Positions 14,752-47,928 of a DNA stretch of 64,000 bases are shown here, in pieces; position 1 is the first letter of the stretch, and each line of letters starts with the position of its first letter. The notes under the pieces are model-generated. The model was not told where the DNA came from. It searched no databases and saw nothing but the letters and a program-made list of their open reading frames with translations. Position numbers and translations under genes: made by a program. The stretch spans positions 3,180,501-3,244,500 of the forward strand of contig NZ_CP011479.1 in the NCBI RefSeq assembly GCF_001011155.1, read 5' to 3'. The DNA comes from Hoeflea sp. IMCC20628. GTDB lineage: Bacteria; Pseudomonadota; Alphaproteobacteria; Rhizobiales; Rhizobiaceae.

Positions 14752-14760
14752 ACGCCAAAA

Positions 14761-16064: not shown

Positions 16065-17614
<1,550 letters not shown>

Positions 17615-21898: not shown

Positions 21899-22077
21899 AT
21901 CGACCTCTTCAAGCTCTGAACAAGATTGATTTTCCAGCGTTTTTTCGTTAGCTGGGGATAGATTTTGCCGTCTGGTGGACAGTACTGTCTTACACGGGTG
22001 TCCCCCACGCGTGTCTTACATTGGTGTTCAACGGACGGAAAAGTTGGAGAATCCGTCACCTCCAAACGGAGGTTGGC

Positions 22078-26804: not shown

Positions 26805-26811
26805 GTGATTC

Positions 26812-27720: not shown

Positions 27721-29138
27721 CCGGCGCCCTAAGAGAGGCTTGCGAAGGGTGGAGTTCTAGCGTTGCCGGCACACGCAGCACAGTCGTGCTTCCTGCTGAG
27801 TCGTTTACCACCAAGGCGGCAGCCAGGATCGGCGCTGCTGAGATGAACATCATTGCTCGCACAGACACCAAATCCATGAATGAAATTTCGATGGACCTGC
27901 TCAAATTGCTACATTCCGGCGGGTCGCTTTCCTCCAAGCAGCTTCGAGATGCGATTTGGTGTCTGTGGGGAACGACACCTGCGCTGGCTGATTATCCGGA
28001 AGTCTTCAGCGGGATCATGAAGATGGTCGAAGCAAGCCCAAAACGGAAACCGTTTCGCAATCTCGCAACTGTCTACCTGGTTCAGTTCTCGCCGAAGCGG
28101 CAAAGTTTTATAGAGGCGAGCTCTGCCCTACAGCGCCTTGCAATTCAATGGGGAAAGCCTTGGGCCGATCATCAGCAATTACACAGTCTGTATGATTGTG
28201 TTGCAGGCCCGAGAATGATTGCCAAGTCTGCGTTGCAACAGAATCAATCTGCGACCCAGGCACTTCAGGCGATGGGGCTGGGAGCGCTTAATGCGCAATC
28301 AGGTTTCGCTGAGGCAATCACCCGTGAGTTGCTCGTCAATCTCGCCAACGGCGCAGAATCAGATCACGAAACGAGACTCGCCCGGGTTCAGGCCTATGCC
28401 ATGGATTCGGTTGGTGTGCCGTTGTTCAACACCCTAGATCTGGAGCTGGCCGAAGCGTTGATGAAGCCGTTCGAGGCGAGAGCTCCGGAAAAGCGCATCA
28501 AGGACATCTTTCTGAATTTCATACTTTCGATTTTTGGGGACCCGCGAATTCATCCTGGGCGCTGGGAACGCTTCCCTCACATCAAGACGATGGTGATAGC
28601 GTGGTTGACCGAGCAATCACTCCGCCAGTTCCTGGATATTGTCAGCAGATCCATGAACAGCGAATCCGATGAAAGAATGTGGAAATACCGCCGGGCTTTC
28701 TGGGAAGCTGCTCATCAAAAGGGCCTCATCCGGGGGGCCTGGGTCGTGTTTGCCGAGGAAGGAGCGGCCTTAGCGCGGCGGTCTTTTGGTAAGAATGTCG
28801 CCTTTGCAAGGTTTAGCAGCCGAGGTGGAAAGCAGGTTCACAGGACGCACGCGGTCTTATTGTTGGAAGTTGGCAATGGGATAGTTGCGGACTGGAGTCA
28901 TAGCGGCAAGGTGAATATCTGGAGCAATGCGCAAGACCGCAGCGCACCGCAAATGTACAACCATTCTTACAGCTCGGATGACGTTCAGATACGAAGCCGC
29001 GGCGGGGATATGGAAAACAACGAGTATCTGGTGAAGTCCCATGTCTCACCAAGCACTTATAGCTGGCAGCGCGCGGTTGCCCAACGGCTCTATCTATTGA
29101 CGAAGACGAAGTTGCAGCAATCCGATTACCAGGCTTAA
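27717..29138 (+). CDS. zorC: Zorya type I protein ZorC (EH-signature domain)
   Basis: The 473-residue protein lacks membrane spans and matches the EH-signature family in its C-terminal half: WKYRRAFWEAAHQKG, a Glu pair in FAEEG (near residue 345), and the His in ADWSHSGKVNIW (near 395). ZorC is a cytosolic DNA-binding effector that works with ZorD once the ZorAB motor is triggered. EH-signature ZorC defines type I Zorya, together with ZorD. The first about 45 residues look atypical, and a start at the ATG at 27843 would also be possible. The 4-base overlap with zorB supports the longer form. Confidence 0.88.
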   Translation: MTGALREACEGWSSSVAGTRSTVVLPAESFTTKAAARIGAAEMNIIARTDTKSMNEISMDLLKLLHSGGSLSSKQLRDAIWCLWGTTPALADYPEVFSGIMKMVEASPKRKPFRNLATVYLVQFSPKRQSFIEASSALQRLAIQWGKPWADHQQLHSLYDCVAGPRMIAKSALQQNQSATQALQAMGLGALNAQSGFAEAITRELLVNLANGAESDHETRLARVQAYAMDSVGVPLFNTLDLELAEALMKPFEARAPEKRIKDIFLNFILSIFGDPRIHPGRWERFPHIKTMVIAWLTEQSLRQFLDIVSRSMNSESDERMWKYRRAFWEAAHQKGLIRGAWVVFAEEGAALARRSFGKNVAFARFSSRGGKQVHRTHAVLLLEVGNGIVADWSHSGKVNIWSNAQDRSAPQMYNHSYSSDDVQIRSRGGDMENNEYLVKSHVSPSTYSWQRAVAQRLYLLTKTKLQQSDYQA

Positions 29139-29146
29139 ATGATACC

Positions 29147-32116
29147 ATGAACTTCTTCTGTACCCCCTTACCAAGCGGTGCCCTGATCGAACTCGAACAG
29201 CGAGGCCTCCTGGGAAAGAAGTCTATTCCGTTCTCTCAATGGAAAGAGAAAGCTGGTCAGTTATCATCCAAGGTTCGTTTCATCGAGCATGCATTGGCCG
29301 ATGGTCTGATCACTCAGGAAGGAAGCGGCATAAACGCTCCTTCCGAGTGGGTACTTTCTCTTCCTGCCTCCCAGATCGAGGCGCTAAACATTCCTCCGCT
29401 TGCCGGAATATCCGTCGGTGTGTCGATGCGCGGCCGAATCGACAGTGATGACAGTGTGCTGCAGTTGGTTTGGCAGGACCAAAACCTGCGCGTGATCTCG
29501 CCTGAGATCATGGGGCCATTCATCAAGGTTAGCGGCGAATGGTGTCGATTGTCACTCGCCTTGCACTCGATCAATGACGCAGCCAGAGCTTTCAACCAAA
29601 GCGCCGGCACCGACTTTGAATCCCGGTTGCCTCACTGGCAGGCCGTGCAGGACATCCTGCAAACGACGATAGGTCATGAAATTGCTGCTGATCGATTTGT
29701 TGGCACTCTAACAATTTATCAAGCGGGCGCATTTGCACTTGATGTTCGAGAGACATCAAATGGGCCAGACTTCGTTCCGATACTTATGGCCAGAGGCTTG
29801 CCGCCAGAGCTTGGTGAAATCGACGATACGGTCGATGCACCGGAGACTGACGGAAAAATTGCAGCTGAGTGGGCAGAAGATGACGAAAAGAAGAGCAACG
29901 AGGATGACGCGCTGCTCACGCCATTGCTTCAATCACGGTTCAGCGACGAAGTCTCAAACCGTCCGGGAAATGCCAAGCCGGCTTATGTCCTCGATCGAAA
30001 TACCTACCTCTTGGTCGATCCGGCTCTTCGTACCGCGCTCGATGTTGTAAAGCGGATCCGGAGCTCGCCCGATACTGAGCGGAAGGCATTTCTCAGAAAT
30101 CCGCGCTCACTCATCGCTGAAACCCTGGGAGAAGGCGGCGATGCGATCGTCAGCTCGTTGTTTGTCGAGACGCAGCAGTATTCGGATCGTATCGAGGGCC
30201 TTGGTCTCTGGGAGAAGCCAAAACTTCCATGGATCACGCGAAAATCCAGTCAGTGGCTTCCTGAAAAATTTACCGTCCAGGTCGGGGCCAAAAAGCTCGA
30301 AGCGACACCGGAAAAAATCGAGGAATTGTATGTTCTCTGTGAGAAAGCAGAGTTGGAACACGCCGATGATATCGCATTTGAACACGACCTTCTCCCAACC
30401 CCCGACGTGCGCAACATGTTGGATAGGTTGGAGGCGAGTGGCCCTCCGGTCAAACTTGACCAACCCTCAGATGAGCATTCCGAGCGCCCAGAGCGAGACC
30501 AAGACGTCCTTCAGATAAAGCAGAATCTGGAGGAAATTGACTACGCATCGAAGCTGGTCAAACGCGGAAATCTTGTGCCTTTCGGCTTTCCGAGCAACCA
30601 CATCAAACACACAGTACCCAAAGAGCATCAGTTGCAGGGTTTTGATTGGTTGTGCAAATGCTGGAAGCAAGGTTGGCCTGGAGTCCTGCTCGCGGATGAC
30701 ATGGGTTTGGGTAAGACATTTCAGGCGCTTGCATTTCTCGCTTGGATCAAGGGCAACCAAATGGCCCGGAAGGGGCATTACCGGCCTTTGCAGGGCCCAT
30801 TCCTAATTGTTGCGCCAACTGCTCTCTTAGACAATTGGAAGAAAGAGGCTGACATTCATCTCAAACCCAACACCTTGGGTTCACGTGTTGATGCCTTCGG
30901 CAATGATCTCAAATACATCAAGACGGCAAAACGAGCAGGCTGGACTGAAGAAGACGCTCTTGATGTCGAGCAGCTGCGGCATGCCGATTGGGTTCTCACC
31001 ACGTATGAAACGCTGGCTCTCTATCATCGGAGTTTTGCCAGAGTTGCCTATTCGGTGGCTATTTTTGACGAGATGCAGAAGGTCAAATCCCCAGATTCAA
31101 TTAACAGCCATGCTGCCAAAACGATGAACATCGATTTTGTTTTAGGAATGACGGGCACGCCGATTGAAAACCGCCTTGAGGATTTGTGGTGTTTGATGGA
31201 CCGGATCGCGCCCGGTTACCTCGGAGATATGAAAACTTTCTCTAAGACCTACGGAGAGGAAGATCCGGCAGCGCTCACAGAACTCAAACATAAAATGGAT
31301 CATCAACAAGGCGATGCCCCTGCGATTATGCTACGGCGAATGAAAGACGACGTAGCAAAGGATCTGCCACGAAAAGACATCCGCACCTATCAGATTGAGA
31401 TGCCTACGGTTCAAGCTGCTGCATACGACGAAGCCGTTGCCGTGGCTAAAGCGGCCAAGGCTTCCCCCAAATCGATGTTAGAAACACTCCACTTACTTCG
31501 CGGTATATCGCTTCACCCGCTGCGATCATCAGATACAAATGCCTATGATCCGGAATGGCGCCAGAATTGGATAAATGGTTCGGCGCGTCTCCAAAAGACA
31601 TTTGCAATATTGGAAGATATTCAAAGCCGCTCCGAAAAGGCGCTTGTCTTTTTGGAAGACCGGTCGATGCAGAAGGTATTTGCCTCGTCTGTTGCCGAAC
31701 ATTTCCGATTGCACGCCAAGCCGCCAATCATCAATGGCGAGATGTCAGGGCGCCAGCGGTTGCAGGCTGTCGATGATTTCCAAGGAAGGCCGACGGGATT
31801 TGACCTGCTCGTCCTATCACCAAAAGCGGCCGGCATCGGCCTCACCATTACCGCGGCTAACCATGTCGTGCATTTGAGTCGCTGGTGGAACCCGGCGGTA
31901 GAAGACCAATGCAATGACCGAGCTTTCCGGATTGGACAAACCAAAGACGTCACAATTCACCTGCCTATGGCAATTCACCCCACCTATGGTGAGGCGTCGT
32001 TCGACAACAAACTGCACGGATTGCTTGAACGAAAGCGGACGCTGTCCCGAGACATGCTGGCTCCACCAACATCGGAACGGGATATCGACAACCTGTTTGC
32101 CGGGGTTGTCACATAG
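29147..32116 (+). CDS. zorD: Zorya type I protein ZorD (SNF2-type helicase effector)
   Basis: The 989-residue protein has a C-terminal SNF2/SF2 ATPase: Walker A DDMGLGKT (near residue 517), Walker B FDEMQ (near 640, with Met-Gln in place of Ala-His), MTGTPIENRLEDLW (motif III) and RAFRIGQTKD (motif VI, near 923). The N-terminal about 480 residues are ZorD-specific. In the type I system ZorD is the DNA-processing effector. It begins 8 bases after zorC and ends the zorABCD operon. All four genes look intact. Confidence 0.9.
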   Translation: MNFFCTPLPSGALIELEQRGLLGKKSIPFSQWKEKAGQLSSKVRFIEHALADGLITQEGSGINAPSEWVLSLPASQIEALNIPPLAGISVGVSMRGRIDSDDSVLQLVWQDQNLRVISPEIMGPFIKVSGEWCRLSLALHSINDAARAFNQSAGTDFESRLPHWQAVQDILQTTIGHEIAADRFVGTLTIYQAGAFALDVRETSNGPDFVPILMARGLPPELGEIDDTVDAPETDGKIAAEWAEDDEKKSNEDDALLTPLLQSRFSDEVSNRPGNAKPAYVLDRNTYLLVDPALRTALDVVKRIRSSPDTERKAFLRNPRSLIAETLGEGGDAIVSSLFVETQQYSDRIEGLGLWEKPKLPWITRKSSQWLPEKFTVQVGAKKLEATPEKIEELYVLCEKAELEHADDIAFEHDLLPTPDVRNMLDRLEASGPPVKLDQPSDEHSERPERDQDVLQIKQNLEEIDYASKLVKRGNLVPFGFPSNHIKHTVPKEHQLQGFDWLCKCWKQGWPGVLLADDMGLGKTFQALAFLAWIKGNQMARKGHYRPLQGPFLIVAPTALLDNWKKEADIHLKPNTLGSRVDAFGNDLKYIKTAKRAGWTEEDALDVEQLRHADWVLTTYETLALYHRSFARVAYSVAIFDEMQKVKSPDSINSHAAKTMNIDFVLGMTGTPIENRLEDLWCLMDRIAPGYLGDMKTFSKTYGEEDPAALTELKHKMDHQQGDAPAIMLRRMKDDVAKDLPRKDIRTYQIEMPTVQAAAYDEAVAVAKAAKASPKSMLETLHLLRGISLHPLRSSDTNAYDPEWRQNWINGSARLQKTFAILEDIQSRSEKALVFLEDRSMQKVFASSVAEHFRLHAKPPIINGEMSGRQRLQAVDDFQGRPTGFDLLVLSPKAAGIGLTITAANHVVHLSRWWNPAVEDQCNDRAFRIGQTKDVTIHLPMAIHPTYGEASFDNKLHGLLERKRTLSRDMLAPPTSERDIDNLFAGVVT

Positions 32117-32180
32117 GATTTTTCGATACTGGCTGCTGAGAAGGCAGCATAATCACGGCCGTCGCTCATGCGCTCGGAAA

Positions 32181-32321
32181 GCCAACCTCACGGGTTACAC
32201 TAAGAACATCTACCCACAAAAAGACCTCGACAAAATCGCCGACAGCCTCAACCATCGTCCCCTAAGAGGGCTTGGTTTCAGGACGCCTCTTCAAGCCTAC
32301 CAAACTGAAATCTCAAATTAG
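32181..32321 (+). pseudogene. IS30-like transposase remnant, C-terminal end only
   Basis: The 46 codons before a TAG end like an IS30-family transposase integrase-core C-terminus: LTGYTKNIYPQKDLDKIADS, then LNHRPLRGLGFRTPLQAY, matching the family pattern of L-RP---L-F-TP. The upstream part is replaced by zorD. The fragment is therefore a scar left between the Zorya operon and the next operon. It probably marks a past recombination that joined the two. The family-level call (IS30 versus another rve-type) is less sure. Confidence 0.6.
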
Positions 32322-32380: not shown

Positions 32381-34927
32381 ATGTTCTACCCTTTTCTCGT
32401 CGCCGACCTCCGTTCCGGGCTGCATTATCGCCTGACTGATACCGGCCTCGCAGAACTTTCGCTTGCGCCTGTAGCGCCGGAATGGGCCCCGGGGCGGGCG
32501 ATTATCGACGCCCCCGATCCAGTCTGGAGAGAAAGTGTTGCCAACGCACCAGTCGAGACGATCTCGGCAGTCAGCGTGGCGTTGGAGGATCTTGTGCTGG
32601 CTACCGGCGATTTGCACGTGCCTGCGGCTGGTACTTTGCAAGACGGCCGTGCGAGGCGGCATCTGGATGCACTGATCGGGCTTTGGCATAGGCTGGGCGA
32701 TACGTTGCCTGAGGGGCTAGCTCAGGTGCGCCATGTCCTGGAGCTTCCGCATGGTAAGTTCCTTGATCCGTTGCCCGTGGTCGAGGGATCGCTCGACCCG
32801 CTTGCACCTGCCGCGATGCAGGCTCTGTATAATCGCCTGGAACAAGAGTTTGGCACATTCCCGGCACCCGCCAGAGGTCTCGCAGCCCCTGTTGGAAGTA
32901 GACTTCACGCCTTGCAGGGCGGTATTTCGGCGCCGGAAATTGCTATTGGAAAGATTGACAACAGCCTTGCCTTCTTTGGCTTGCGTGATCCGGCTGCCTG
33001 TGCGGATTTCGCGGCGGCGCGGGCCCGCAAAATGATTGAGGCCGGGGTAGCTGCCCGCGAGATCGCGGTCATGACAGGCAATAATCCGAGCCAGATCGCC
33101 CGTGCCTTTGCCGAGCAGGGCGTGCCTCTTTCCGGCCTTGCTGGCAACTTCCCGGAGCGCGACGTCATCGGTGAGACAGCCCTTCATCTTGCACTGGCCA
33201 AGCGTACCCCGACCCCCGCAATGGTGCTTGCAAGTCTAGCGCTATCACCCCTGATGCCTTGGTCCTCGCAATCCGGACGTGATCTTGCCGAAGGTCTAAT
33301 TGGCGGCGATTTCCGGGGTGAGATACTGTCACCTACCCCTGCGCATACGGAATTGTGGAAAGACATTCGTTCGTCGGCGGGTAGCTTGGCGCAGTTGCGT
33401 TTCCTGATCGACCGTATCTGTGAAAGGATTAAACAAGGTCATGAAGTCCGCGCTCGCTTGCCCATCCCGCCTGGTGAAGGTAGCCCGGATTGGGAGACGA
33501 TCCTGCGTGGCATCCAGATTGCGCCGCCTTTGGGTGCTGATCCAGATCGTAATCTTGAGGGCGTCAGTCTGTGGTCCGCGCAGGAAAGTCCTTGGCGCCC
33601 ATGCCGACATCTGATCGTGACGGATTTCACCGACGGTATTTACCCGACGCGAGCGCGAGGCAATCCGATGTTTCTCGAAAGCGAGGTCGCCGCTGTCCGC
33701 GCAGCCGTTGGATTGCAGCTACGAGGCCGGGCTGAAGGGCTGGCTCACGGGCTCTCGCTATTTGATCGACAGCTTCAGGCGGTCTCTGAGACGGTGACGT
33801 TCCTGACCCCCTGGCGTGATTTGTCCGGTGCACGTCTGCAACCATCGGCGGGGCTTTCGCTGGTTGCGCGGGCCGTCGGGGGTATCGAGGATGCTGCCGA
33901 TTTGATCCTGGACCTGTCGCTCTTGCCGCCCGCAGATTGGCCCATCACGCACCATCACCTGCCAGCGTTGCCGGAACCGCCCGATCTGCCCGAGGCTCTA
34001 GCTTTTGCGGGGGTCGACTTGTTGGCGTTACGCCGAAAAGATGACGGAACGACGAAACCTCAATCGCCCTCGCGGCTGGAAACGCTTCTGGTTAGCCCTC
34101 TGGCCTGGCTTCTGGACGAAGTCGCAGCCAGTGACATGTCTTGGTCGGCAGAAGAGCTGGATGTAATGGCCAAAGGAAACATCGCCCATGATGTGTTCGA
34201 GCACGTATTCCTCAAGGACCAGCCCATTCCTGATCCAGCGGCCCTAACCGATGCAGTCTCGGACGCCTATGATCGCGCGGTGACCCGACATGCCGGGTTC
34301 CTGCGCAGCGCGTCATGGGAAATGGAACGCAGCGGGCTGGAACGCGAGATCCTTTACGCCGCACTTCGCTGGCGCGAACACCTGTTGGCGCTCGGCGCTA
34401 AAATCATTGGCAACGAGATCTGGCTGGCTGGCGAAGCGCATGGCATCAACCTTCACGGTAAAGCGGATGCGATCCTTGAATTGCCAGACGGAGCGTTGCT
34501 GGTTGTTGACCACAAGAAGAGTGGCACATCGGCCAGACGCAAGCGGATGGAGTCAGGCTGGGATCTGCAGGCGGGGCTCTATCGCGACATGATCGCTCGC
34601 CCTATCCGACGCGAAGGAGACGGAATGGGCCGTCTAATCGGCCGCAGGGTCGGGATCGCCTATCATCTGATGAATGATGGCGGACTTCTGACCTCAGGCC
34701 TGCCCTTGGCCGAAGGTTCGCCTGCCCGCGACATGGGCGATGCCGTCAACACGGCTGCGGTTGCAAAGCTCGCTGAGCGGTTGGCCGAGCTTGATGCCGG
34801 GCGAGTCGTGCTCAACACATCGGTAGACGAGGTTTTCTTCAAGAAAGAGGCAGGGTTCACGCCCTATGCGCTGACCGATGGCTCGGCCCTCGTAACCGCA
34901 TTCATCCGCCAGATTGAGGAGGAATGA
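32381..34927 (+). CDS. AddB-like protein with C-terminal PD-(D/E)XK nuclease domain
   Basis: This 848-residue protein is the first gene of the five-gene operon. A RecB/AddB-type nuclease domain lies near the C-terminus: Asp in HGKADAILEL (near residue 694), VVDHKKS (DxK, near 707-713) and QAGLY (QxxxY, near 730). The middle resembles an inactivated UvrD-like fold (REIAVMTGNNPSQIARAFAEQG), as in AddB. I see no Walker A motif, so it is probably a nuclease/scanning subunit rather than a motor. The ATG at 32381 is preferred over 32339. It overlaps the next gene by 4 bases. Cas4-like iron-sulfur cysteines are not evident. Confidence 0.75.
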   Translation: MFYPFLVADLRSGLHYRLTDTGLAELSLAPVAPEWAPGRAIIDAPDPVWRESVANAPVETISAVSVALEDLVLATGDLHVPAAGTLQDGRARRHLDALIGLWHRLGDTLPEGLAQVRHVLELPHGKFLDPLPVVEGSLDPLAPAAMQALYNRLEQEFGTFPAPARGLAAPVGSRLHALQGGISAPEIAIGKIDNSLAFFGLRDPAACADFAAARARKMIEAGVAAREIAVMTGNNPSQIARAFAEQGVPLSGLAGNFPERDVIGETALHLALAKRTPTPAMVLASLALSPLMPWSSQSGRDLAEGLIGGDFRGEILSPTPAHTELWKDIRSSAGSLAQLRFLIDRICERIKQGHEVRARLPIPPGEGSPDWETILRGIQIAPPLGADPDRNLEGVSLWSAQESPWRPCRHLIVTDFTDGIYPTRARGNPMFLESEVAAVRAAVGLQLRGRAEGLAHGLSLFDRQLQAVSETVTFLTPWRDLSGARLQPSAGLSLVARAVGGIEDAADLILDLSLLPPADWPITHHHLPALPEPPDLPEALAFAGVDLLALRRKDDGTTKPQSPSRLETLLVSPLAWLLDEVAASDMSWSAEELDVMAKGNIAHDVFEHVFLKDQPIPDPAALTDAVSDAYDRAVTRHAGFLRSASWEMERSGLEREILYAALRWREHLLALGAKIIGNEIWLAGEAHGINLHGKADAILELPDGALLVVDHKKSGTSARRKRMESGWDLQAGLYRDMIARPIRREGDGMGRLIGRRVGIAYHLMNDGGLLTSGLPLAEGSPARDMGDAVNTAAVAKLAERLAELDAGRVVLNTSVDEVFFKKEAGFTPYALTDGSALVTAFIRQIEEE

Positions 34928-37900
34928 CCATGGGAGAATTCGGTTCAGATCGGGGACTGGTCATAGTTCCCGCCGGCGCAGGCGCGGGAAAAACCCATCG
35001 CATCAAGACGCAGCTGTCCGACTGGGTCAAACGCAAGGTCGTGCGCCCCGAGCGCATACTTGCCGTGACCTTCACCGAATCGGCAGCAGGCGAATTGCGT
35101 GAACGCATCCGAGCCGGACTTCTGGCGGACGGGCTGGTGGCTGAGGCCATGGCGGTCGAGCGTGCCTACGTCTCGACCATTCATGGGCTTGGTCTGCGAC
35201 TATTGACCGAACATGCGCTGGCCGCGGGAGCATCGTTGCAACCGCGCCATCTTGGCGATGCCGAACGCGACCTGCTGATCCGACAGGCACTGGCGCATGC
35301 CAGATCACTCGACCCGATCAAGGCTGAACCCGAGCGGTTCGGCTACCAGGCCAACTGGCAGAAGGGCGAAACGGTCGAGGACTCATTACGCGCCCGGGTG
35401 CTGTCCATGATCGACCTGTTGCGCGGGCTGGGTGACAAGGGCCGCGATCCCGGCCTTATCGCACCAGCATTGACGCGACTCGATAGGATTTATGGCGAGG
35501 TGCTCGCCGATCCCGCCGCTTCCCGTGACGCGCTGGTGGTCGCGGTTCGGGCTATGCTCTCGTCCTTTGCCCAAGGCGGCATGGCAACCGTTACTGCCAA
35601 AGGCCCACGCGAGACACTAGATAAGAACGCTGCCCTCTTCCGTAGCGTTGAACGGGAACCGGCGCTGCTGGATCGGGACTGGGGCATTTGGCAATCCCTG
35701 CGCAGCCTATTTATCTCAAACAGCCGCACGAAGACTCCAGAAGGCTATGATGAGCTTGCCAGCGCAATCATGCAGGCCGCCGATGCGCTGCCCGCCCATC
35801 CTGGGCCTTTAACGGATGGGAAGTTACATCTCCGCTGTTTGATTGCTTGCGCACAGGAAGTGATGGAGGCCTATGAGGCGCGCAAGAAGGCGCTTGGCTT
35901 AATCGATTTCGCCGACATGATCGCAGGGGCCGAACGTCTGTTGCGCACCGATCCGGCGGTGAGGCAAGCCGTGCTCGACGAAATCGACTGCGTCATCATC
36001 GACGAATTCCAGGATACGAACCCAGTGCAGTTTGCGCTGCTGTGGCAGCTCGGAGCAAAGGCACCGCGCACGTTGCTTGTGGGTGATGTGAAACAGTCAA
36101 TCATGGGCTTTCAGGGTGCCGATTCGCGTCTGTCGCAAGCCCTTGCGGCGGCGAATCCAGAAGCGACGCAGCCCCTAGACCGCAACTGGCGTTCGACGCC
36201 AGCAGTAATGGAATTCATCAATGCCATGGGAACGGGGCTCTTCGGCGTGGGCTACAATACACTGGCCCCGACCCGTGACCCGGTGGCTGGACCAGCATTG
36301 GAGGTACTGAATGTCGTGAAGGGACGCGGGACGAAGAACTTCTCGAAACCCCAGGAACATATCGCCGAGCGCATCGCCCGCATCTTGAAGACAGGCGAAT
36401 GGATCACCGATCGGCATACCAAGGCCACCAGGTGCGCGCGCCCCTCGGACGTAGCGCTTCTGGTCTGCCGCCACGCCACCGCCGCTCGCTACGCGGAGGA
36501 GCTGCGCGCGCGTGGTGTGCCTGTCCGCATAGCCGAGGATGGCTGGGCAGCAAGCCCTGTGGTGCAGGCCGCTCGCGCCGCGTTGAGTTATGCCGCCAAT
36601 CCAGCCGATATTCATTCTGGTCTTTTCCTGCGCACGCTTGGCCCAAATCCGCTGAGCCTCCAAGCTGCGATGGCAGCGCAGATCGACGGGCAGCTAGCAG
36701 ATGATCCGGTTCTAATGCGCTTGGCGGCCCTGTCTGATCGGCTTGCTCGCTTGCCGGTATCGACCGCGCTGGATGTGGTGCTCGACGCCGCCAGTCTACG
36801 CCTCTGGGCCGCCCGCCTGCCCGACGCTGCGGAGGCGCGTGCAGACCTTCTGCGGCTTGAGGCCGAGGCGGGCGAATTCGAAGCCGCGCACCGCGACCTC
36901 AAAGCCGCCTCCGGCTTCCACGGTGAAACAGCCAAAGTCTTTCTCGGCTGGCTCGATGCGCGTGCGGCTGACCGCGATTTTGATCGCCGTCCCGATCCCT
37001 CGGGCAATAGCGCAGAGGCCGTGGAGATAGTCACATGGCACGCCTCCAAGGGTCGTGAGTGGCCGATCACCGTGGTCGCCGAATTTGACCATGGTATTGA
37101 GGAATGGCCCGGCAGCACCGCGACCCGGTTTGACGCGCTGGACAAGATTGACGACATGGCAGCGGTGCTGGCTTCTTCCGCCCTTATCCACACGCCTGGA
37201 TTTGCCGCGCCCGAGGCCGGCCGACGCTTCATCGAGGATCGCCGCGAGGCATTCGAGACCAATGCGAAAAACCTGCTCTATGTAGCCCTAACCCGCGCCC
37301 GCGATCGGCTGTTGCTGGAATGGCCGGAATTCCTCAAGGAGCGCGACGAGGATGCGCCCGAAGCGAAGTGCCTGTTTCACGTGTTTACAGATGCGTGCGC
37401 ACCGCAAATTGGAGACGGCATGCTGCGGATCGGCGGGCTGAATTGCCCGGCGGTGATCACACAATTGCCGGAACAGGTGAGTTTCACTGAATATCTGGCG
37501 GAGCCGGGGAGAGATGCACCTCGGTTCGGTAGCGCCGTGCCCTTGCTCAGTACGCCGACTTCGCCGTGGCGCTTGCAGCCTTCGCAGGCCATAACCGCCA
37601 AGCCGACACCAGAAACTCGCGGAATCAGTCTTGGTGCACCTTGGCCCAGCACCATCAGCACAGCTGCCCGAGGCACCGCGCTGCATCTTGCAATACGCAC
37701 TTACCTAACACGATCCGACCTGATCGAAGCCTTGCCTGCGGCCACAGGGCTGGATGAGGCTACCCTGGCGCTGGTGGCAGAGCGGGCGAACGCGCTGAAG
37801 ACCTGGCTGTCAGACGACGGATACACCGGTCTGCAATGTGAGATTCCTGTGCTGGGACACACCTCAGAGGGTGCTGAAATTCCCGGCATGATCGACCTGC

Positions 37901-38124
37901 TGGCAATCGGGCCGAAGGGATGCCTGTTGATCGACCACAAATCTGGCGGCGCGGGTTTGGGTCTTGGCCCCTATTGGCAACAACTTTCGGCCTATGCCGG
38001 ATTGGTACGCGACGTGTTCCCATCGTATGAATTGAATGGTTTGGCTGTGCTTTGGGTCGATCATGGGCGGCTGGACCTTGTGGACATGGCCTCTGCCCGC
38101 GCACCTAAAGGCGATGCTCTTTGA
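34924..38124 (+). CDS. AddA-like UvrD-family helicase-nuclease
   Basis: The 1066-residue protein has a complete SF1A helicase set: Walker A AGAGAGKT (17-24), IIDEFQDT (near 358), VGDVKQSIMGFQGAD (near 386), RNWRST (near 420), TWHASKGRE (near 703) and YVALTRARDR (near 785). It ends with a RecB-type nuclease: GMIDLL (near 988), LIDHKSG (near 1002) and QLSAY (near 1020). With the preceding AddB-like protein it looks like a second, specialised AddAB machine that unwinds and degrades DNA. Housekeeping AddAB in this order of bacteria is usually a separate locus, and here the partners are non-AddAB genes. It is coupled to both neighbours by ATGA overlaps. Confidence 0.85.
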   Translation: MTMGEFGSDRGLVIVPAGAGAGKTHRIKTQLSDWVKRKVVRPERILAVTFTESAAGELRERIRAGLLADGLVAEAMAVERAYVSTIHGLGLRLLTEHALAAGASLQPRHLGDAERDLLIRQALAHARSLDPIKAEPERFGYQANWQKGETVEDSLRARVLSMIDLLRGLGDKGRDPGLIAPALTRLDRIYGEVLADPAASRDALVVAVRAMLSSFAQGGMATVTAKGPRETLDKNAALFRSVEREPALLDRDWGIWQSLRSLFISNSRTKTPEGYDELASAIMQAADALPAHPGPLTDGKLHLRCLIACAQEVMEAYEARKKALGLIDFADMIAGAERLLRTDPAVRQAVLDEIDCVIIDEFQDTNPVQFALLWQLGAKAPRTLLVGDVKQSIMGFQGADSRLSQALAAANPEATQPLDRNWRSTPAVMEFINAMGTGLFGVGYNTLAPTRDPVAGPALEVLNVVKGRGTKNFSKPQEHIAERIARILKTGEWITDRHTKATRCARPSDVALLVCRHATAARYAEELRARGVPVRIAEDGWAASPVVQAARAALSYAANPADIHSGLFLRTLGPNPLSLQAAMAAQIDGQLADDPVLMRLAALSDRLARLPVSTALDVVLDAASLRLWAARLPDAAEARADLLRLEAEAGEFEAAHRDLKAASGFHGETAKVFLGWLDARAADRDFDRRPDPSGNSAEAVEIVTWHASKGREWPITVVAEFDHGIEEWPGSTATRFDALDKIDDMAAVLASSALIHTPGFAAPEAGRRFIEDRREAFETNAKNLLYVALTRARDRLLLEWPEFLKERDEDAPEAKCLFHVFTDACAPQIGDGMLRIGGLNCPAVITQLPEQVSFTEYLAEPGRDAPRFGSAVPLLSTPTSPWRLQPSQAITAKPTPETRGISLGAPWPSTISTAARGTALHLAIRTYLTRSDLIEALPAATGLDEATLALVAERANALKTWLSDDGYTGLQCEIPVLGHTSEGAEIPGMIDLLAIGPKGCLLIDHKSGGAGLGLGPYWQQLSAYAGLVRDVFPSYELNGLAVLWVDHGRLDLVDMASARAPKGDAL

Positions 38125-39329
38125 TGTATTGGGGAATACTAGCGCCTGACACCATCATCTCGCAGCGCAGGCAGCAAAACCTAGGACTTGCCAGCGCCGT
38201 ACGACATTTCAACGACCGTTCGGTTCCGGGTTTGGGCGGCATGTGGTTTCCGATGCCGATCCTTTGGTCCGTTTTGGCGGTCTCCATCGCAGAGGAATTA
38301 CGTGTACCGGCTTTGCCAGTCGGCAACGCTATCGAAGCGTTGATGATGCGACAAGCAAAGGAGGGTCCGGCGGACCGTCGGGTGCGCGGTGCGCGCAAGA
38401 TGCAAGGTCTGGAAGACTGGAGTTTCAAGAACCTGAAACGACGCGGCACCTATGTAGTTCAACCAATCCGCATGGCTATGGTTCAACCGCTTGTCGCGCT
38501 TAGCTTTGTGCGGGGCAGCCGCTATGGTGCCTTCGCCATCCACACCGCTGGCGCGCAGATGCTGAATCTACCGGTGATGGCAAACAACCGCCGTGTGTTG
38601 GGCGCCTGGGCGCATGGGGGGGGCACTCGTGGTTTGAACGAGGTTGTTGCAGGCCTGTCACCCAATGCTGCCGTGCCAAACGAAGTGCGCAAACTGATCT
38701 TGGCCCGCCTCATCGGAAGTGACGACTTCTCGGCGTCGCGTCGCCGGGCCCTTGTGGAACTTGGGACCGGGCCCAGTGCAGGTCAGCTTGATGCGACGGA
38801 ACCCCTCAGCGGGATAACCCCTGACCACTGGACGGACCTGCGCGCGGGGGCGGCTTTCATGGATTTGCGTAATGCCGCGCTCGCGGTGTTGTATCGCTTG
38901 GAACACCTTCTGCTTCAGCTTCGCGATGCAAATGAACTCGCTGTGCTGTCCGTCGACGAGGCCAGCAAAGTGGTAGGCGAACCCCTCGCGGCGCTTCGCC
39001 AATGCGCCCGCCAGAAGGGCGACAGAATTGACGCCGGAGCAGAGGCAACCAGCCAAAAATTCCTATCTGAGGTCAGGAACTTGCCCGTCCCGCAGCTTGT
39101 TCAGAAGCTGGCCGACCGCGAGGGGACGGTGATCAGGTGGCGGGACGGTCGTATCGGTCTGGGGCCAGCAGCCGGTGAGGTGTTTACCAGCGATGAAAGC
39201 GAACCCTTTCAAGATGAGGAATTCGCGCCTCAGTTGTTCCGGCTATACAACCTTCATTGCGTTGCGACCGAACTTAACGGCGGCGTGAACCCAGGATGTC
39301 GGGATGCAGCAGATGAAGAACCAACATGA
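38121..39329 (+). CDS. Unknown 402-residue protein, third gene of the five-gene operon
   Basis: I recognise no domain in this protein. It is soluble, with no signal or membrane span. It has a mostly helical C-terminal half (WTDLRAGAAFMDLRNAALAV and RLEHLLLQLRDANELAVL) and a basic central region (RRVRGARKMQGLEDWSFKNL). The N-terminus (MMYWGILAPDTIISQRRQQN) suggests a compact beta-containing start. Four-base overlaps with the genes on both sides imply fixed stoichiometry with the AddA-like and HxK proteins. It could be the adaptor or sensor of the system. This is inference from context only. Confidence 0.65.
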   Translation: MMYWGILAPDTIISQRRQQNLGLASAVRHFNDRSVPGLGGMWFPMPILWSVLAVSIAEELRVPALPVGNAIEALMMRQAKEGPADRRVRGARKMQGLEDWSFKNLKRRGTYVVQPIRMAMVQPLVALSFVRGSRYGAFAIHTAGAQMLNLPVMANNRRVLGAWAHGGGTRGLNEVVAGLSPNAAVPNEVRKLILARLIGSDDFSASRRRALVELGTGPSAGQLDATEPLSGITPDHWTDLRAGAAFMDLRNAALAVLYRLEHLLLQLRDANELAVLSVDEASKVVGEPLAALRQCARQKGDRIDAGAEATSQKFLSEVRNLPVPQLVQKLADREGTVIRWRDGRIGLGPAAGEVFTSDESEPFQDEEFAPQLFRLYNLHCVATELNGGVNPGCRDAADEEPT

Positions 39330-41128
39330 TGAACACGACGCTTATCACCCTCTTCATGCCGCCTGAGAATTGTTTCGGAGATTTCGGTTTCGTCTGCGGA
39401 TTTACGGCAACACCTAAGGTGATGGGGCAGATCCGGCGCAGCTTTGCCGGTGAAATGGCGCGCCCGGCACTTGCCGCATTCATCCATCCTACAATCAATG
39501 CGATTTCGGATATAACGGGCCTTGCCTGGATGTGGATGCGGCTTCAGGATCGGGGCTACAACCTGCTGCATGCCAAGGTTGCCCTGCTGGGATTTCGCAA
39601 ACGCGACGATGATGGATATGTCATCCGGCTTGCGATCAGCACCGGAAACTGGACATTAGACCCCCTGACAGACAGCATCGACTTGTTCTGGTCGATTGAC
39701 CTCCAGACTGACAAGCCCGTCGATCAAGACATTGCAGATATTCAGGCCGCGTGGGATATGTTCAACTGGCTTCGCAATCGCGGGGATTGCACGCTGATTG
39801 AACGCGAATATGACGGCGCACTGCCCTATGCGCGGCTTGAGGCCGAGATTAGGTCCCTTCCGGCCTCCACCTTGCAACCCCGCTTCATTGACAGCCGATC
39901 TCAGGCGTTGCTCCCGCAGGTCGTCGAGCGGCTGGGAATGCGAAAAAGGGCCGATCGCCTGATCCTCGGGTCCGGCTATTTCGAAGCAGAAGGCGATGGT
40001 GGCGCGGGACTACCTGAAAGGCTCCGCAAGTCGCTGGTCGCGGAAAAACTCTTGAAAAAAGCTGCCAACTTAGACCTATTTCTCAACCCGCTGTCCTGTC
40101 AAGGTCTGGCCGTGCGGGCCCCCGCGCTGACCGACGCGGGGTGGAACCTGCGGCGCCCAACCTCTGCCTTGCACGGCGAGGACGGGCGGCTTCATGCCAA
40201 GTTTGTTCTGCTGGGCTCGGGTCAGGATGAAGCCGTAGGGCGCGTTTACATAGGGTCGGGCAATCTCAGCCGCAACGGATTTGAAACGGCCGCAAACGCG
40301 GGTGGAAATCTTGAGGCGGGTGTTGTCGTCGATCTTCCCAAGGGCTTAAAATGGCGCAGCCGAAAGAACAGTAAGGGTGGCCTTGCGGCCCTGTTGCCAA
40401 TCCAGTTCAACGACACCGTAACACTGTCGGCGCTACAGTCCGGCAGTGGGTTTGTGCCCCCTGAAGTGCCTGCATCCCTTCCGCCGGTGTCATGGTTGAT
40501 CTGGCAGGACGGCGCGCTTTCTGCGCCCGGGGGGATTATTCTTGATGTTGCAGGCCCGGACGGGACATCTGTCCCGACCCCTTGCGCATGGCCTGCGCCT
40601 GCCCCCGCAATTGTTACCCTGTCACACGGTGAATGGCGCCTTCCGGTCATCGCAGAGGGCGTGCTTGTCGTGCCACGGCCAACCGAAATGACCGTGGAAG
40701 ATGTCCTGGCCGGGCTTGGGTCTTTCCCCGAACCCATGGACGCGGATCAATCCGATGACGGGCCCGAAGGCGGCGAGCCGTTGGTTGAGGCCTCTGACTC
40801 ACCGGAATTTCCGCCCGCCACATATGCCATTCGCCGGATGATGGGCCTGCTGGTCCGGCTTGGCGAAACTCAGGCAAAAATCCAACCCAGAGATTGGCCG
40901 CGATGGTGTCGCGAGCTGCGCCAAAACCTATGCGCGATCTGCGCGCAGGAACAGCAGATGATCGGGTTTTTTCGCGATGCAATGGCAAATCCTTTGCCGG
41001 CATTGGAAGACCCGCGCATGTGCCCCGTAGGGGCCGACCTGAAACTGCTGGAACAATCGTTGAAGGCCGTCGCGCAAGAATGGGAACTGGATAACACTCC
41101 GTCGCTTTGGGCCGAAGAGGTCATGTGA
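39326..41128 (+). CDS. Phospholipase-D-like (two HxK half-sites) putative nuclease
   Basis: The 600-residue protein carries two HxK half-sites, as in tyrosyl-DNA phosphodiesterase/PLD-type enzymes. The first is LLHAKVALLGF with His at residue 82, followed by LAISTGNWT. The second is LHAKFVLLGSG with His at residue 290, followed by VYIGSGNLSRNGFE. Both halves keep the downstream Gly-Asn pair, so a full active site can form within one chain. Such proteins cleave phosphodiester bonds in DNA (DrmC of DISARM is one defence example). The C-terminal 200 residues are acidic and Pro-rich without a known domain. It is coupled to both neighbours. Confidence 0.75.
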   Translation: MMNTTLITLFMPPENCFGDFGFVCGFTATPKVMGQIRRSFAGEMARPALAAFIHPTINAISDITGLAWMWMRLQDRGYNLLHAKVALLGFRKRDDDGYVIRLAISTGNWTLDPLTDSIDLFWSIDLQTDKPVDQDIADIQAAWDMFNWLRNRGDCTLIEREYDGALPYARLEAEIRSLPASTLQPRFIDSRSQALLPQVVERLGMRKRADRLILGSGYFEAEGDGGAGLPERLRKSLVAEKLLKKAANLDLFLNPLSCQGLAVRAPALTDAGWNLRRPTSALHGEDGRLHAKFVLLGSGQDEAVGRVYIGSGNLSRNGFETAANAGGNLEAGVVVDLPKGLKWRSRKNSKGGLAALLPIQFNDTVTLSALQSGSGFVPPEVPASLPPVSWLIWQDGALSAPGGIILDVAGPDGTSVPTPCAWPAPAPAIVTLSHGEWRLPVIAEGVLVVPRPTEMTVEDVLAGLGSFPEPMDADQSDDGPEGGEPLVEASDSPEFPPATYAIRRMMGLLVRLGETQAKIQPRDWPRWCRELRQNLCAICAQEQQMIGFFRDAMANPLPALEDPRMCPVGADLKLLEQSLKAVAQEWELDNTPSLWAEEVM

Positions 41129-41129
41129 A

Positions 41130-43697
41130 ATGGATTGGGTAAAAACAGCTGACTTTCTGGACCAACTTACATCTCATCGAACGGACGATCTGCTCGATGC
41201 TGGCCAGCGCGCGTCAGTTGCAGAACTAGCACGGCGGATCAGATCTGGTCAGCGCGCCGCCTTGTTGGCGGATGAAGTCGGTATGGGCAAAACCCGCATT
41301 GCGGTTGCGCTGATTGCGGCGGTGCGCCACGCGGGCGGTAGAACCGCCATTGTGCTCCCCGCTGGGTTGGGCGTGCAGTGGCAGAAGGAACTGAAGCTAT
41401 TCCAACCTGATGACCAGACGCTGCTGCCATTGCGCAGTTATGACGGATTTATCGCGGGCTTCCTCACCGATGAAGATGCCGAAGGCAACGAAAAGCGTAG
41501 ACGCAAACACATCGACCGGCTTACGGATCGCAGACAACAGCGGGAATTGCCCAAAAAAGGGTGGGCCGCTGAAGAGGTTCTGATGATCTCGCACACATTT
41601 GCAGCCATGCGTTTCCCGAATGCAGGCGATGGTCCAGCGGGGGGATGGCGGCGTGAGTTGCTTCCGAATGTTGTGCGATTGCTGGTTGGGCGACGGCGCA
41701 ATTTCATGCGCGACAGCTTTCAACGTACTGAGGTTAGCCATGTTTATGCCAGCCGTCGTGCCGCCCACACCATTGCCGACACAATCACTGAACACAATTT
41801 GCAGGACGATCCGGGTTTAATCGGTGATCTGGCCGGCGACTACAAATGGCTTGGGGCCGATGAGTACAAGCACAAGATCCTGCGGCTGATCGGGTATGGG
41901 CTGGGTCAGTTCGACCTGATCGTGGTCGATGAGGCCCACAAGGCCCGTGGGGCCGATTCCAGCCTTTCGCGCATTCTCGGACCGGTCAGCTGGGAGGCCG
42001 AGGATCCATTCCGTCTGGGGATGACTGCAACGCCTGTTGAACTGGACTCAGGGCAATGGATTGACACACTGGGCCGGATCAGCGGGCGAGACGATGATGA
42101 GGATGTTACTGCGCTTGCCGATCTTGCCGAATGGATAAATGGCTATGTCGACACAGTCAAAAGAATCCAGATCGAAGAACTCGATAACCCATTGACTGAA
42201 GGTTTCGAGAGCGCCGCCTCGGGATTTCAAGACGCCCTGCGTCCGTATGTCCTGCGACGTGACAAGCGCAACGACCCACAGGTCCGCGCGTTTCAGGAAG
42301 TTTACGGTGATTATCGTGTCGTGAAGGACTTGAAGGTATCTCCCGGAACGGAGGGATTCACGCGCGACTGGCTGCGTCGGTTCTGTGCCGCTGAAGCCCT
42401 GTCGATCCTGCCTCAGGAGGATCCCCGTGTGAAACGTGCAAGACTGTCGGTCGCTCAGGGGTACGGGTTTGGGTTCACGCCTGACGCTGACCTTGCCGAA
42501 CCGTTGCAGGTGGAAGATGAATTTGAAGGTCCACAATCGTTTTGGATCGATGCCTTCTGTGGTCAGCCTGCGGATATCTACACCCATCCAGCGATTCTGG
42601 CCGCCGCTCAACGGATCGAATCTTATACTGCACAAAACGAGAAGGTTCTGGTTTTCGGGCGATTCATAGCTCCGATGAATGCGCTGACCAGGGTGCTGGA
42701 TGCGCGGGAAATGCTGCGGCGGCTCAGAGACGGACAGCACTGGCCGGCCGCGAAAGTACGGGACGAAAACGAACCCGCCGTTCTTGCCGTGATGAAAGAC
42801 CCTGACCTCTGCGCGCCCTCGGACGGGATCGCAGCGATCAACCAGATGCTGACCGCGCGTTACAAAAAATGGTCCACTGCGCGCCGGGCCGAGCTTGCAA
42901 GGCTTCATCGTGAAATCAACGCCCTCGCGCCAAAGGATGATATCGCCGCTCTGCTGGTTAGCTTCTTGCGCCAGGATGACGATGGCGAAGAGTTGCAAGG
43001 CGATATCGGACCCCTGCTGGGAGCGCTTGGCGACAGGCGCGAGCGCGCAGATGCACCTTGGACCGGCGTCGAAATACTAGATCTGTTCAGAGGACTGCTG
43101 TCGGATCTCTCGACCGATGAAGAGCAAGAAAACAACGACACGCTGCGGTCCAGACTGGTTGTGTACCTTCAGGATTATTCCGGGCGAGAGGGAAGTTTCG
43201 CCCGCATGATGTATGGCGAAACTCTACCTCAAACGCGCAGCTTGTTGCAGTCTGCCTTCAATCGCGCCTCCAGCTGGCCAATGGTGCTGCTTGCTCAATC
43301 TCGCGTCGGGCGCGAGGGGCTGAATTTGCATGAAGCCTGTCGCACCGTGGTCATTCTGCACGCAGAGTGGAACCCCGGCATCGTCGAACAACAGATCGGC
43401 CGCGTGGACCGTAAGGGCAGCTGTTGGCTGCATGATCTGAAATCATGGCACGAGCATGCCGAGGGCGATCCACCGCGTATCCGCATTCATCCCGTTGTCG
43501 TCAGCGGAACCTACGATGATCACAATTGGCAGGTGCTAAAGGCACGCTGGATGGAGTTGCGCGCTCAGTTGCATGGAGAAGTGTTGCCGAAGCACGCAAA
43601 GCACTCCGCGACATTGCCTGAAATTGAGGCACTTCGGCACCGCATTGTAGCAGCCACACCTAGCTTCGCGCCAAGGGATATTGACAACGAACTATGA
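41130..43697 (+). CDS. SNF2-type DNA translocase/helicase, last gene of the five-gene operon
   Basis: The 855-residue protein is an SF2 ATPase of the SNF2/RapA kind: Walker A ADEVGMGKT (47-55), VVDEAHK (near 266), LGMTATPVE (near 294), and the motif V-VI region SRVGREGLNLHEA to QQIGRVDRKG (about 725-765). An insert of more than 200 residues separates the two RecA lobes. The start lies one base after the preceding stop. Together with the HxK protein it resembles the helicase plus PLD pairing of DISARM. No DUF1998 protein or methylase is present, so it is not DISARM as defined. Confidence 0.8.
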   Translation: MDWVKTADFLDQLTSHRTDDLLDAGQRASVAELARRIRSGQRAALLADEVGMGKTRIAVALIAAVRHAGGRTAIVLPAGLGVQWQKELKLFQPDDQTLLPLRSYDGFIAGFLTDEDAEGNEKRRRKHIDRLTDRRQQRELPKKGWAAEEVLMISHTFAAMRFPNAGDGPAGGWRRELLPNVVRLLVGRRRNFMRDSFQRTEVSHVYASRRAAHTIADTITEHNLQDDPGLIGDLAGDYKWLGADEYKHKILRLIGYGLGQFDLIVVDEAHKARGADSSLSRILGPVSWEAEDPFRLGMTATPVELDSGQWIDTLGRISGRDDDEDVTALADLAEWINGYVDTVKRIQIEELDNPLTEGFESAASGFQDALRPYVLRRDKRNDPQVRAFQEVYGDYRVVKDLKVSPGTEGFTRDWLRRFCAAEALSILPQEDPRVKRARLSVAQGYGFGFTPDADLAEPLQVEDEFEGPQSFWIDAFCGQPADIYTHPAILAAAQRIESYTAQNEKVLVFGRFIAPMNALTRVLDAREMLRRLRDGQHWPAAKVRDENEPAVLAVMKDPDLCAPSDGIAAINQMLTARYKKWSTARRAELARLHREINALAPKDDIAALLVSFLRQDDDGEELQGDIGPLLGALGDRRERADAPWTGVEILDLFRGLLSDLSTDEEQENNDTLRSRLVVYLQDYSGREGSFARMMYGETLPQTRSLLQSAFNRASSWPMVLLAQSRVGREGLNLHEACRTVVILHAEWNPGIVEQQIGRVDRKGSCWLHDLKSWHEHAEGDPPRIRIHPVVVSGTYDDHNWQVLKARWMELRAQLHGEVLPKHAKHSATLPEIEALRHRIVAATPSFAPRDIDNEL

Positions 43698-46950: not shown

Positions 46951-47295
46951 AGCCCAACTTCCTACTGAAACCACCCAAGCGGTTGTAGGCTAGAAACGTT
47001 AATAACGTGCCGCGCGGCTTTGCGTCGGGGCGCAACTGCAGAATCCCAAGATGGACCGCCCCGCACAGAAGATGTGCTCCCGCGAGAACGTTCGGTTGCA
47101 GGAAGACTTCTTCAAATGCGAGTGGCCAGGATTAGGGCATGAGCCGATTAGGCAGACTTTGCCTGAGGCTGTGAGGCGAGACCGGCGGCTCAACGCCGCG
47201 CGCTTCCCAAAGCAGACTGTCTGAATGCGGCCCCAGTTGGCTCAACATGCTGGCCTAATCTTCCGATGGCCAATAGTGGCCGAAGGAGTATGGAA
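46951..47295. other. Intergenic region upstream of the second recombinase
   Basis: This 345-base divergent gap holds the promoters of the two-gene cassette (minus) and the small recombinase (plus). No gene, repeat or RNA is evident. Confidence 0.4.
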
Positions 47296-47928
47296 ATGGG
47301 TATAGCACAATACGATCCTGCCGCGGTCGGCAGGCCTGCATGGAACGCGGGACGGATGGTCGGCGTCAAGAAACCCCTGAAACAGCGCCAGATCTGGGCG
47401 ATCCGCTTCTTTCTTGATCGCGAGGAGAGAATGCGTGATCGCGCGCTATTTGACCTCACCATCGATAGCAAGCTTCGCGGCTGCGATCTCGTCAAGATCA
47501 AGATCGGCACGCTTGTTTCGGGACAGTCGATCCGGACCCGCGCAATGGTGGTCCAGCGGAAAACCGGTCGCCCAGTTCAGTTCGAGATCACGGCTGACGT
47601 GAGAGCGAGTTTGCTCGCCTGGCTGGAGCGAAGAGGTGGTACGATTGATGACTACGCTTTCCCCAGCCGCGTCGATCCCGCCAGCCACCTGAGCACTCGG
47701 CAATATGCACGATTGGTCGATGAATGGGTGACCGCAATCGGTCTGCGACGAGAAGACTATGGCACTCATTCGCTACGTCGGACCAAGGCTGCGATGATCT
47801 ACAAGGCGACGGGTAATCTCAGAGCGGTCCAGATTCTGCTTGGCCACAGCAAAATCGAAAACACGGTCCGATACCTTGGCGTGGACATCGAAGATGCCCT
47901 TGAGTTGGCAGAGCATATCGAAATTTGA
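47296..47928 (+). CDS. Small tyrosine recombinase
   Basis: The 210-residue protein is almost only a catalytic domain: Arg in DSKLRGCDL (near residue 61), THSLRRT (HxxR, near 157), LLGHSK (near 181) and nucleophile in VRYLGVD (near 193). All key residues are present. The usual N-terminal arm-binding domain is reduced to about 45 residues. Similar short recombinases occur on alphaproteobacterial plasmids and islands, where they may resolve cointegrates or move small cassettes. GGAG lies 7 bases before the ATG at 47296. Confidence 0.82.
   Translation: MGIAQYDPAAVGRPAWNAGRMVGVKKPLKQRQIWAIRFFLDREERMRDRALFDLTIDSKLRGCDLVKIKIGTLVSGQSIRTRAMVVQRKTGRPVQFEITADVRASLLAWLERRGGTIDDYAFPSRVDPASHLSTRQYARLVDEWVTAIGLRREDYGTHSLRRTKAAMIYKATGNLRAVQILLGHSKIENTVRYLGVDIEDALELAEHIEI

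Follow-up and report, generated by a model that had tools for sequence, protein, structure and literature searches.

A five-gene operon of Hoeflea that joins an AddB/AddA-like pair to a Tdp1-type and SNF2 triad is a candidate two-module defence system

What do five abutting genes do that encode, side by side, the two halves of an AddAB-like helicase-nuclease, a helical protein, a predicted phosphodiesterase and an SNF2-type ATPase? They lie in a 64,000-nucleotide stretch of Hoeflea sp. IMCC20628 (contig NZ_CP011479.1, positions 3,180,501 to 3,244,500), which was analysed whole and is called the window here; coordinates are those of the window unless a locus in another genome (an L number) is named. 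The list of its open-reading frames (ORFs) confirms five on the same strand at 32381-43697. Judging from sequence comparisons, we lean towards reading them as a composite, horizontally mobile defence operon of two modules, in which the triad of the last three proteins would recognise and cut DNA and the AddB/AddA-like pair (AddBA) would degrade it. The gene set is as follows:

32381..34927, forward strand: g1, AddB-like PD-(D/E)XK nuclease, 848 amino acids counted from the ATG (PDDEXK_1, 9.1e-16)
34924..38124, forward strand: g2, AddA-like superfamily 1 (SF1) helicase with a C-terminal nuclease motif, 1066 amino acids (UvrD, 1e-43)
38121 or 38124..39329, forward strand: g3, mostly helical protein for which no family was found, 401-402 amino acids
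39326..41128, forward strand: g4, predicted Tdp1-type (HKN) phosphodiesterase of the phospholipase D (PLD) superfamily, 600 amino acids
41130..43697, forward strand: g5, SNF2-type superfamily 2 ATPase, 855 amino acids (ResIII 2.8e-12, SNF2 1.2e-6, Helicase_C 1e-6)

The genes are as tightly packed as the initial annotation described, down to the single base between the g4 stop and the g5 ATG. Of the three ATGA overlaps that it listed, those at g1/g2 and g3/g4 stand, but the g2/g3 junction reads TTGATG, which gives TGATG with the ATG start of g3 and a four-base TTGA overlap with a TTG start. For g1 we take the ATG at 32381 as the start, though the frame is open from a TTG at 32339 as well. Neither predicted promoters (2, versus 3.6 in shuffled sequences) nor predicted terminators (14, versus 11.6 with a standard deviation of 3.2) exceed chance.

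The first two genes share the layout of AddAB/RecBCD, with one SF1 helicase and two nuclease motifs spread over two neighbouring genes. At a Pfam cut-off of E<=0.01, PDDEXK_1 is the single match of g1, and g2 matches UvrD-helicase. These matches bear out the RecB-type nuclease motifs and the full SF1 helicase originally noticed in the letters, and so does the conservation of the motifs across 27 homologue rows of g1 and 26 of g2, where the helicase motifs PAGAGxGKT and DEFQD are kept in at least 25 rows:

34466..34519, forward strand: g1 nuclease motif D696...D710-x-K712-K713, with D696, D710 and K712 each in at least 26 of 27 rows
34969..34995, forward strand: g2 Walker A, which reads PAGAGAGKT in the window; every position except the second-last Ala is kept in at least 25 of 26 rows
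37894..37995, forward strand: g2 C-terminal nuclease motif D991, D1004-x-K1006, Q1020-L1021 and Y1024, each in at least 25 of 26 rows

The pair differs from AddAB in scoring far under the curated NCBIfam cut-offs of that family, with 15.5 of 486.5 bits for g1 and 139 of 860.75 bits (addA_alphas) for g2, and the same contig carries the host's own complete AddA and AddB at a distance of about 1.2 Mb. AddB holds its iron-sulfur cluster with four cysteines; g1 has only three, too few for a cluster of that type.

The fourth gene gives little away to family searches. At E<=0.01 the window protein has no Pfam match, PLDc_2 at 0.057 being the sole family listed; at E<=0.1, 33 of the 48 members of its family match PLDc_2 and 20 match Tyr-DNA_phospho, the window protein not being among the Tyr-DNA_phospho matches listed. 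The two HxK half-sites first seen in the window's g4 proved invariant across all 48 sequences, the window's included:

39569..39577, forward strand: first half-site H82-A-K84 with partner N108; H, K and N in 48/48, no Asp at K+5
40193..40201, forward strand: second half-site H290-A-K292 with partners N313 and E330; H, K, N and E in 48/48, no Asp at K+5

Since H-x-K is followed by a downstream Asn, with no Asp at K+5, in 48/48 sequences, the site has the HKN form and not the HKD form. HKN is the active-site form known from Tdp1. The predicted structure of g4 has a predicted local distance difference test score (pLDDT) of 82.8 and a predicted template modelling score (pTM) of 0.85, and its top five Foldseek matches are human and yeast Tdp1 (4.6e-9, probability 1.00); at E<=0.001 there are 19 matches, namely nine Tdp1, two polyphosphate kinase and eight PLD3/PLD4 chains. 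The phosphodiesterase of the initial annotation thus keeps its place in the PLD superfamily but, by its HKN residues and Tdp1 fold, is a predicted Tdp1-type enzyme and not a generic HKD nuclease, with phosphotyrosyl-DNA hydrolysis as a putative activity.

For g5, the SNF2 motifs reported from the sequence agree with the three Pfam matches given above and are conserved over 61 rows, at least 60 of which keep the motif EWNP..EQQ.GR.DR and the following:

41271..41294, forward strand: g5 Walker A, DEVGMGKT
41928..41939, forward strand: g5 DEAH box, D267-H270

The remaining protein, g3, has no match in Pfam, nothing consistent among the PADLOC models and no match among PDB sequences (best E 0.38). 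Its predicted structure (pLDDT 85.5, pTM 0.83) is mostly helical. The nickase N.BspD6I appears as a fold match at E 0.41, with FokI lower down; neither is significant and neither was used. We regard g3 as the likely recogniser or adaptor of the set.

The five genes are not confined to the window: they are found together in further genomes, beyond chance. We scanned 84,980 species genomes with two short peptide patterns taken from a g3 alignment of six sequences, the window's included, and obtained 62 g3 loci, a biased lower bound and not a prevalence because of the way in which the patterns were made. The loci come from several classes of Proteobacteria, from Desulfovibrio and other Deltaproteobacteria, and from Acidobacteria, Planctomycetes and others. 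In every one of the 50 loci with more than 5.2 kb after g3, g4 and g5 accompany it, in the sense that both have matches in the same locus; the locus maps place them after g3. An AddBA-like pair is present at 21 of the 62 loci, has its AddA cut by the contig end at 2, is absent from 27 (no match over 6.8 kb or more upstream of g3, the downstream DNA being short in some loci) and is untestable at 12. A quick g5 tree of 59 rows, which has long branches and leaves out L034 and L071, shows at least four changes of the AddBA state. A lack of co-occurrence in other genomes, named at the outset as grounds for refutation, is not what we find. What was described as a single unit holds together as a recurrent set, but it comes apart into the triad without AddBA at those 27 loci and AddBA without the triad in the fetched stretches of five others (L100-L104).

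Plasmids carry both arrangements. AddBA accompanies five of the seven plasmid-borne g3 loci (L003-L006, L008) and is absent from two, and four of the seven plasmid records are typed conjugative. Among 11 plasmid records that match g1, five hold the triad, five (L100-L104) show no triad in the fetched stretches and one (L105) is a fragment. AddBA usually precedes the triad; the order is reversed in L006, where g3 and g4 are fused as a single ORF of 1004 amino acids, in L015 and in the viral contig L106, where all five genes are present but the stretch ends within AddA. A phage origin was considered and dropped, as 50,697 phage records gave no match at E 1e-3. Some loci hold genes in pieces: in L005 (Novosphingobium pSA1, 13197-17524) g4 lies in two separate pieces, and in L023 (6696-10001) AddA is split.

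The two modules have also been exchanged. Compared with the window, g1 and g2 are 79 and 77% identical in Fuscovulum, 80 and 80% in Roseicyclus and 79 and 80% in Gemmobacter, whereas g3, g4 and g5 reach 30, 36 and 38%, 33, 34 and 38%, and 33, 35 and 39% in the same order of genera. Paracoccus lutimaris has the opposite pattern, with 41 and 50% for g1 and g2 and 67, 71 and 70% for g3, g4 and g5; AddBA and the triad have therefore swapped partners. Operons also move whole: the 11.3-kb copies of Rhizobium, Rhodopseudomonas, Kaistia, Salipiger and Novosphingobium (where the copy is split in two) are 98-99% identical, and the Gluconobacter copy is about 95% identical, so that near-identical operons (95-99%) span different alphaproteobacterial orders. 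The adjoining BREX genes share 90-99% identity with their counterparts at the Rhizobium locus; in some loci they are more diverged than the operon (90.2 versus 98.9% in L022, 94.4 versus 98.8% in L021) and in others less (98.3 versus 95.7% in L020, 97.2 versus 95.2% in L004). All five genes are under purifying selection, with ratios of nonsynonymous to synonymous substitution (dN/dS, NG86) of 0.085-0.294 between the window and three relatives.

A role in defence is read from the genomic context of the operon, which associates with known defence systems. Upstream in the window, at 24555-32116, lie Zorya-like ZorA, ZorB, ZorC and ZorD (PADLOC 1049, 311, 642 and 1142 bits; ZorD, with 349.5 of 1500, is under its NCBIfam cut-off). 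All four genes of a type I Zorya system thus adjoin the operon, as a separate system set off by 264 bp and a transposase remnant:

32118..32321, forward strand: open stretch separating ZorD from g1, with a transposase C-terminus at its end, identified from its translation

We take the remnant to be IS30-like, and it suggests a mobile-element event as the origin of the Zorya neighbourhood. The Zorya-side island context noted at the outset is real in the window but particular to it: in the comparison with L002-L071, Zor genes were found in the window only, and the neighbours elsewhere are BREX genes or AAA and WYL genes. BREX PglZ and BrxL are among them; in ten loci (L004, L005, L016, L017, L019-L023, L043) about 125 bp separate the end of BrxL from g1. 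Genes for WYL, double-AAA and ADP-ribosylglycohydrolase proteins precede g1 in L003, L008, L011-L014 and L052, and AAA and WYL genes stand directly before g3 in several loci with no AddBA (e.g. L007, L042, L044, L062, L066) and in L047, where AddBA is untestable. PADLOC was run on 90 flank proteins from 20 loci (89 of 103 listed ORFs, picked by hand, and one more); among the best 25 of 95 matching models were IetA (8 matches), WYL (4), LeoA (3) and LeoBC (3), with BrxL, PglZ, type I restriction-modification and type III restriction-modification at one match per model.

Some of the surroundings deserve a record of their own. On the Haematobacter plasmid of L004 (1-25171), the operon is preceded by BREX genes and followed by genes for a reverse transcriptase, an ATP-dependent endonuclease and a UvrD protein, a dense defence island. 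In the window, a tRNA-Gln gene lies beside a DUF6538 protein gene at 21825-24117, and a phage-integrase-family gene lies past the operon at 47266-47928; the DUF6538 and integrase-family genes are possible island recombinases. The tRNA-Gln end was tried as an island border, but no second copy of it was found within the window. At 48486-53663, a GC-rich stretch encodes a 1725-amino-acid protein with weak AAA_16/NACHT/Avs4 similarity, possibly a divergent STAND defence protein, and on the minus strand an AAA ATPase gene (56670-58721) overlaps an M41 peptidase gene (55913-56683), possibly a split FtsH-like pair.

How might the five proteins work together? In the most economical model, that of a restriction-like defence, g3 as a helical recogniser or adaptor, g4 as a Tdp1-type DNA-cleaving phosphodiesterase and g5 as an SNF2 translocase on double-stranded DNA would make up a core triad that scans DNA with no methylase involved and cleaves or nicks whatever is non-self or abnormal. 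The AddB/AddA-like helicase-nuclease, distinct from the host AddAB, would then load on the resulting ends and degrade the DNA. Because the five genes include no methylase, discrimination would rest on the state of the DNA (its ends, its adducts or its replication intermediates) or on activation in the course of infection. That the operon acts on phages or plasmids, that its five proteins serve a single pathway and that the steps follow in this order is what we infer.

Several observations weigh against this model. AddBA and the triad each occur alone, and in L002, from the same genus, g3-g4 follow directly after BrxL with no AddBA, so the two modules need not share a pathway. Reading frames are interrupted in g3 (L027, L061, L071), g4 (L005, L050, L071), g5 (L034, L071) and AddA (L023). 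The operon is rare among close relatives: g3 was found in its own genome and one other of 101 relatives, and in its own genome only among 385 genomes of the same class (Alphaproteobacteria, judging by the addA_alphas and addB_alphas matches; at most 4 candidates scored per genome); likewise, g1 has its own and one convincing match among 297 family members, the third being a 66-residue piece at 7e-4. The g3 model matches neither solved nor viral folds (best E 0.41 and 1.3), which leaves its fold and family unassigned, and the match of g4 to Tdp1 is moderate, with a TM-score of 0.38 by query and of 0.50 by target. The dN/dS ratios are rough where dS lies above 1, as several values do, and the tally of defence neighbours is descriptive, with no control set for arbitrary genes.

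The separate occurrence of the modules is also the starting point of a different account, in which two independent defence systems travel together: a triad like that of Azaca (ZacA, ZacB and ZacC), complete alone, and an AddBA pair that is a complete two-gene system. The 27 loci without AddBA, the exchange of partners and the fetched stretches of Agrobacterium, Ochrobactrum, N. humi and S. medicae plasmids that hold AddBA without the triad all fit it. The tight overlaps in the window do not, nor does the retention of the pairing across wide divergence and in both block orders, with a similar pair beside Azaca. Moreover, some solo AddBA pairs look like decay. In Komagataeibacter (L100, 11732-14295), AddBA is 97.7% identical to that of Rhizobium, its AddB is in two ORFs and, with no triad present, a g5-like ORF of 42 bits lies upstream; in L119, a genome of the same family, AddBA is followed by a mere stump of g3 (3448-3669), in what looks like triad loss. 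We think independence rather unlikely on this evidence. AddAB, Tdp1 and SNF2 proteins elsewhere are repair proteins, and the operon might accordingly be read as one for DNA repair or recombination, made of an AddAB paralogue, a Tdp1-like repair enzyme and an SNF2 protein; but it is patchy, mobile, borne on plasmids and islands and flanked by defence genes, g3 is in 2 of 101 genomes (own included) and the host AddAB is complete, all of which makes a repair role very improbable. An action against plasmids or conjugation, in which the Tdp1-type enzyme strips covalently bound proteins from DNA ends and so opens them to loading and degradation by AddBA, would suit the HKN active site, the Tdp1 fold match, the genetic coupling to an end-degrading pair and the conjugative typing of 4/7 plasmid records. 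It is nonetheless unlikely: Tdp1-type enzymes could be plain nucleases, PLD3/PLD4 nucleases are among the fold matches too, and the triad often lacks AddBA. Uncapping by g4 can be framed more widely, as a bolder model of defence against protein-capped DNA, to which we give a low probability. Here g3 and g5 would find ends or nicks held by a covalent phage or plasmid protein (a relaxase, Rep protein, terminal protein or recombinase), g4 would uncap them and AddBA would degrade the DNA; self DNA without such adducts would be spared, and no methylase would be needed.

It is possible, though doubtful, that the operon is instead a deeply divergent Azaca subtype extended by AddBA, with g3 as ZacA and g4 and g5 as ZacB and ZacC. 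Gene order and size classes are the same. In PADLOC (the source of the names ZacA, ZacB and ZacC), g4 matches ZacB weakly, with 29.7 bits over part of the protein (7.1e-8), and hhalign gives 90.8% and 1.2e-6 for that pair; g5 matches ZacC with 52.1 bits and, by BLASTP, at 2e-8 over the motifs only. However, g5 scores higher with PDC-M27C (74.6 bits, its best match), DrmD (60.5 bits) and BrxH, and g3 fails both the Pfam DUF6361 and the PADLOC ZacA models. Profile comparison of g3 with DUF6361 gave a probability of 0.10, no better than the 0.13-0.43 of unrelated g3 pairs, and that assignment stays unproven. An N-terminal motif, [LI]G[LMFY]...PG within the first 120 amino acids, is common to 47/68 g3 ORFs and 8/9 DUF6361 proteins and occurs in 5/1105 other ORFs; found post hoc and also present in 6/73 g4-family ORFs, it is a hint only. 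Proteins of L088 and L089 were tried as bridges between g3 and ZacA; that of L089 is nearer DUF6361 (36.7%, 3.6e-4), and neither links to g3. Since g3 fails the defining DUF6361 component, membership in Azaca is not shown.

Returning to the two-module defence operon, we ask how it compares with systems already named. The initial annotation knew of none with this gene set and PADLOC finds none in the window, g2, g4 and g5 matching only remotely and g1 and g3 not at all; nor is the set described in the portions covered of the literature searched, which includes PMC12839542, PMC10853773, PMC12458937, PMC10952713, PMC12278908, PMC7641849 and PMC11890865. DISARM also combines SNF2 and PLD proteins. 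It differs in its methylase and DUF1998 protein, which, as initially stated, are missing from the five genes and likewise from the ten further window ORFs scanned, and the window proteins stay under the DrmC and DrmD cut-offs. PDC-M27, a PADLOC candidate, shares its C component as the best g5 match and differs in that g3 matches none of its components; the PLD proteins of L088 and L089 match its B component, with 22.9 and 50.7 bits respectively. L088 (2271-12999) holds a further triad, of 444 amino acids, a PLD/Tdp1-like protein of 692 and an SNF2 protein of 964, near a strong DrmD-family protein, and is a further relative of these systems.

The layout itself has a precedent in Azaca, of which we examined 7 of 45 plasmid records. 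As in g3-g4-g5, a first protein, a PLD protein and an SNF2 protein follow one another, and the PLD proteins lack the HKD aspartate in the seven ZacB rows, like g4; the sequences of g4 and g5 are only remotely similar to ZacB and ZacC. In two of the seven loci, those of Bradyrhizobium and Shinella, PD-(D/E)XK and UvrD genes lie upstream on the same strand and complete a five-part layout; the Sphingomonas locus has such a pair in divergent orientation, and the stretches of L095, L096, L098 and L099 have none. The AddB of the pair beside Azaca is not detectably similar to the window's (BLASTP E 0.32 against the Bradyrhizobium counterpart; no match of the AddB profile in L093 or L094 at 1e-5), and the window AddA is 28% identical to the Bradyrhizobium counterpart over 551 positions of the helicase part. 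In Shinella (L094, 1320-3665), Multiubiquitin, ThiF and DUF6527 genes stand just before the five-gene Azaca layout.

In its construction the operon resembles an Azaca-class triad joined to a helicase-nuclease, and it may work like one. Bacterial Tdp1-type enzymes carried in mobile operons emerge as a predicted family, and g3 as a fold without a known match. If the triad does act on protein-capped DNA, Azaca would be a second, distant system of this type. An end-degrading AddBA-like machine has been paired recurrently and exchangeably with triads of a helical protein, a PLD protein and an SNF2 protein, here and beside some Azaca loci; this pairing offers a lead on how Azaca-type systems might work and poses the question of whether the triad feeds AddBA.

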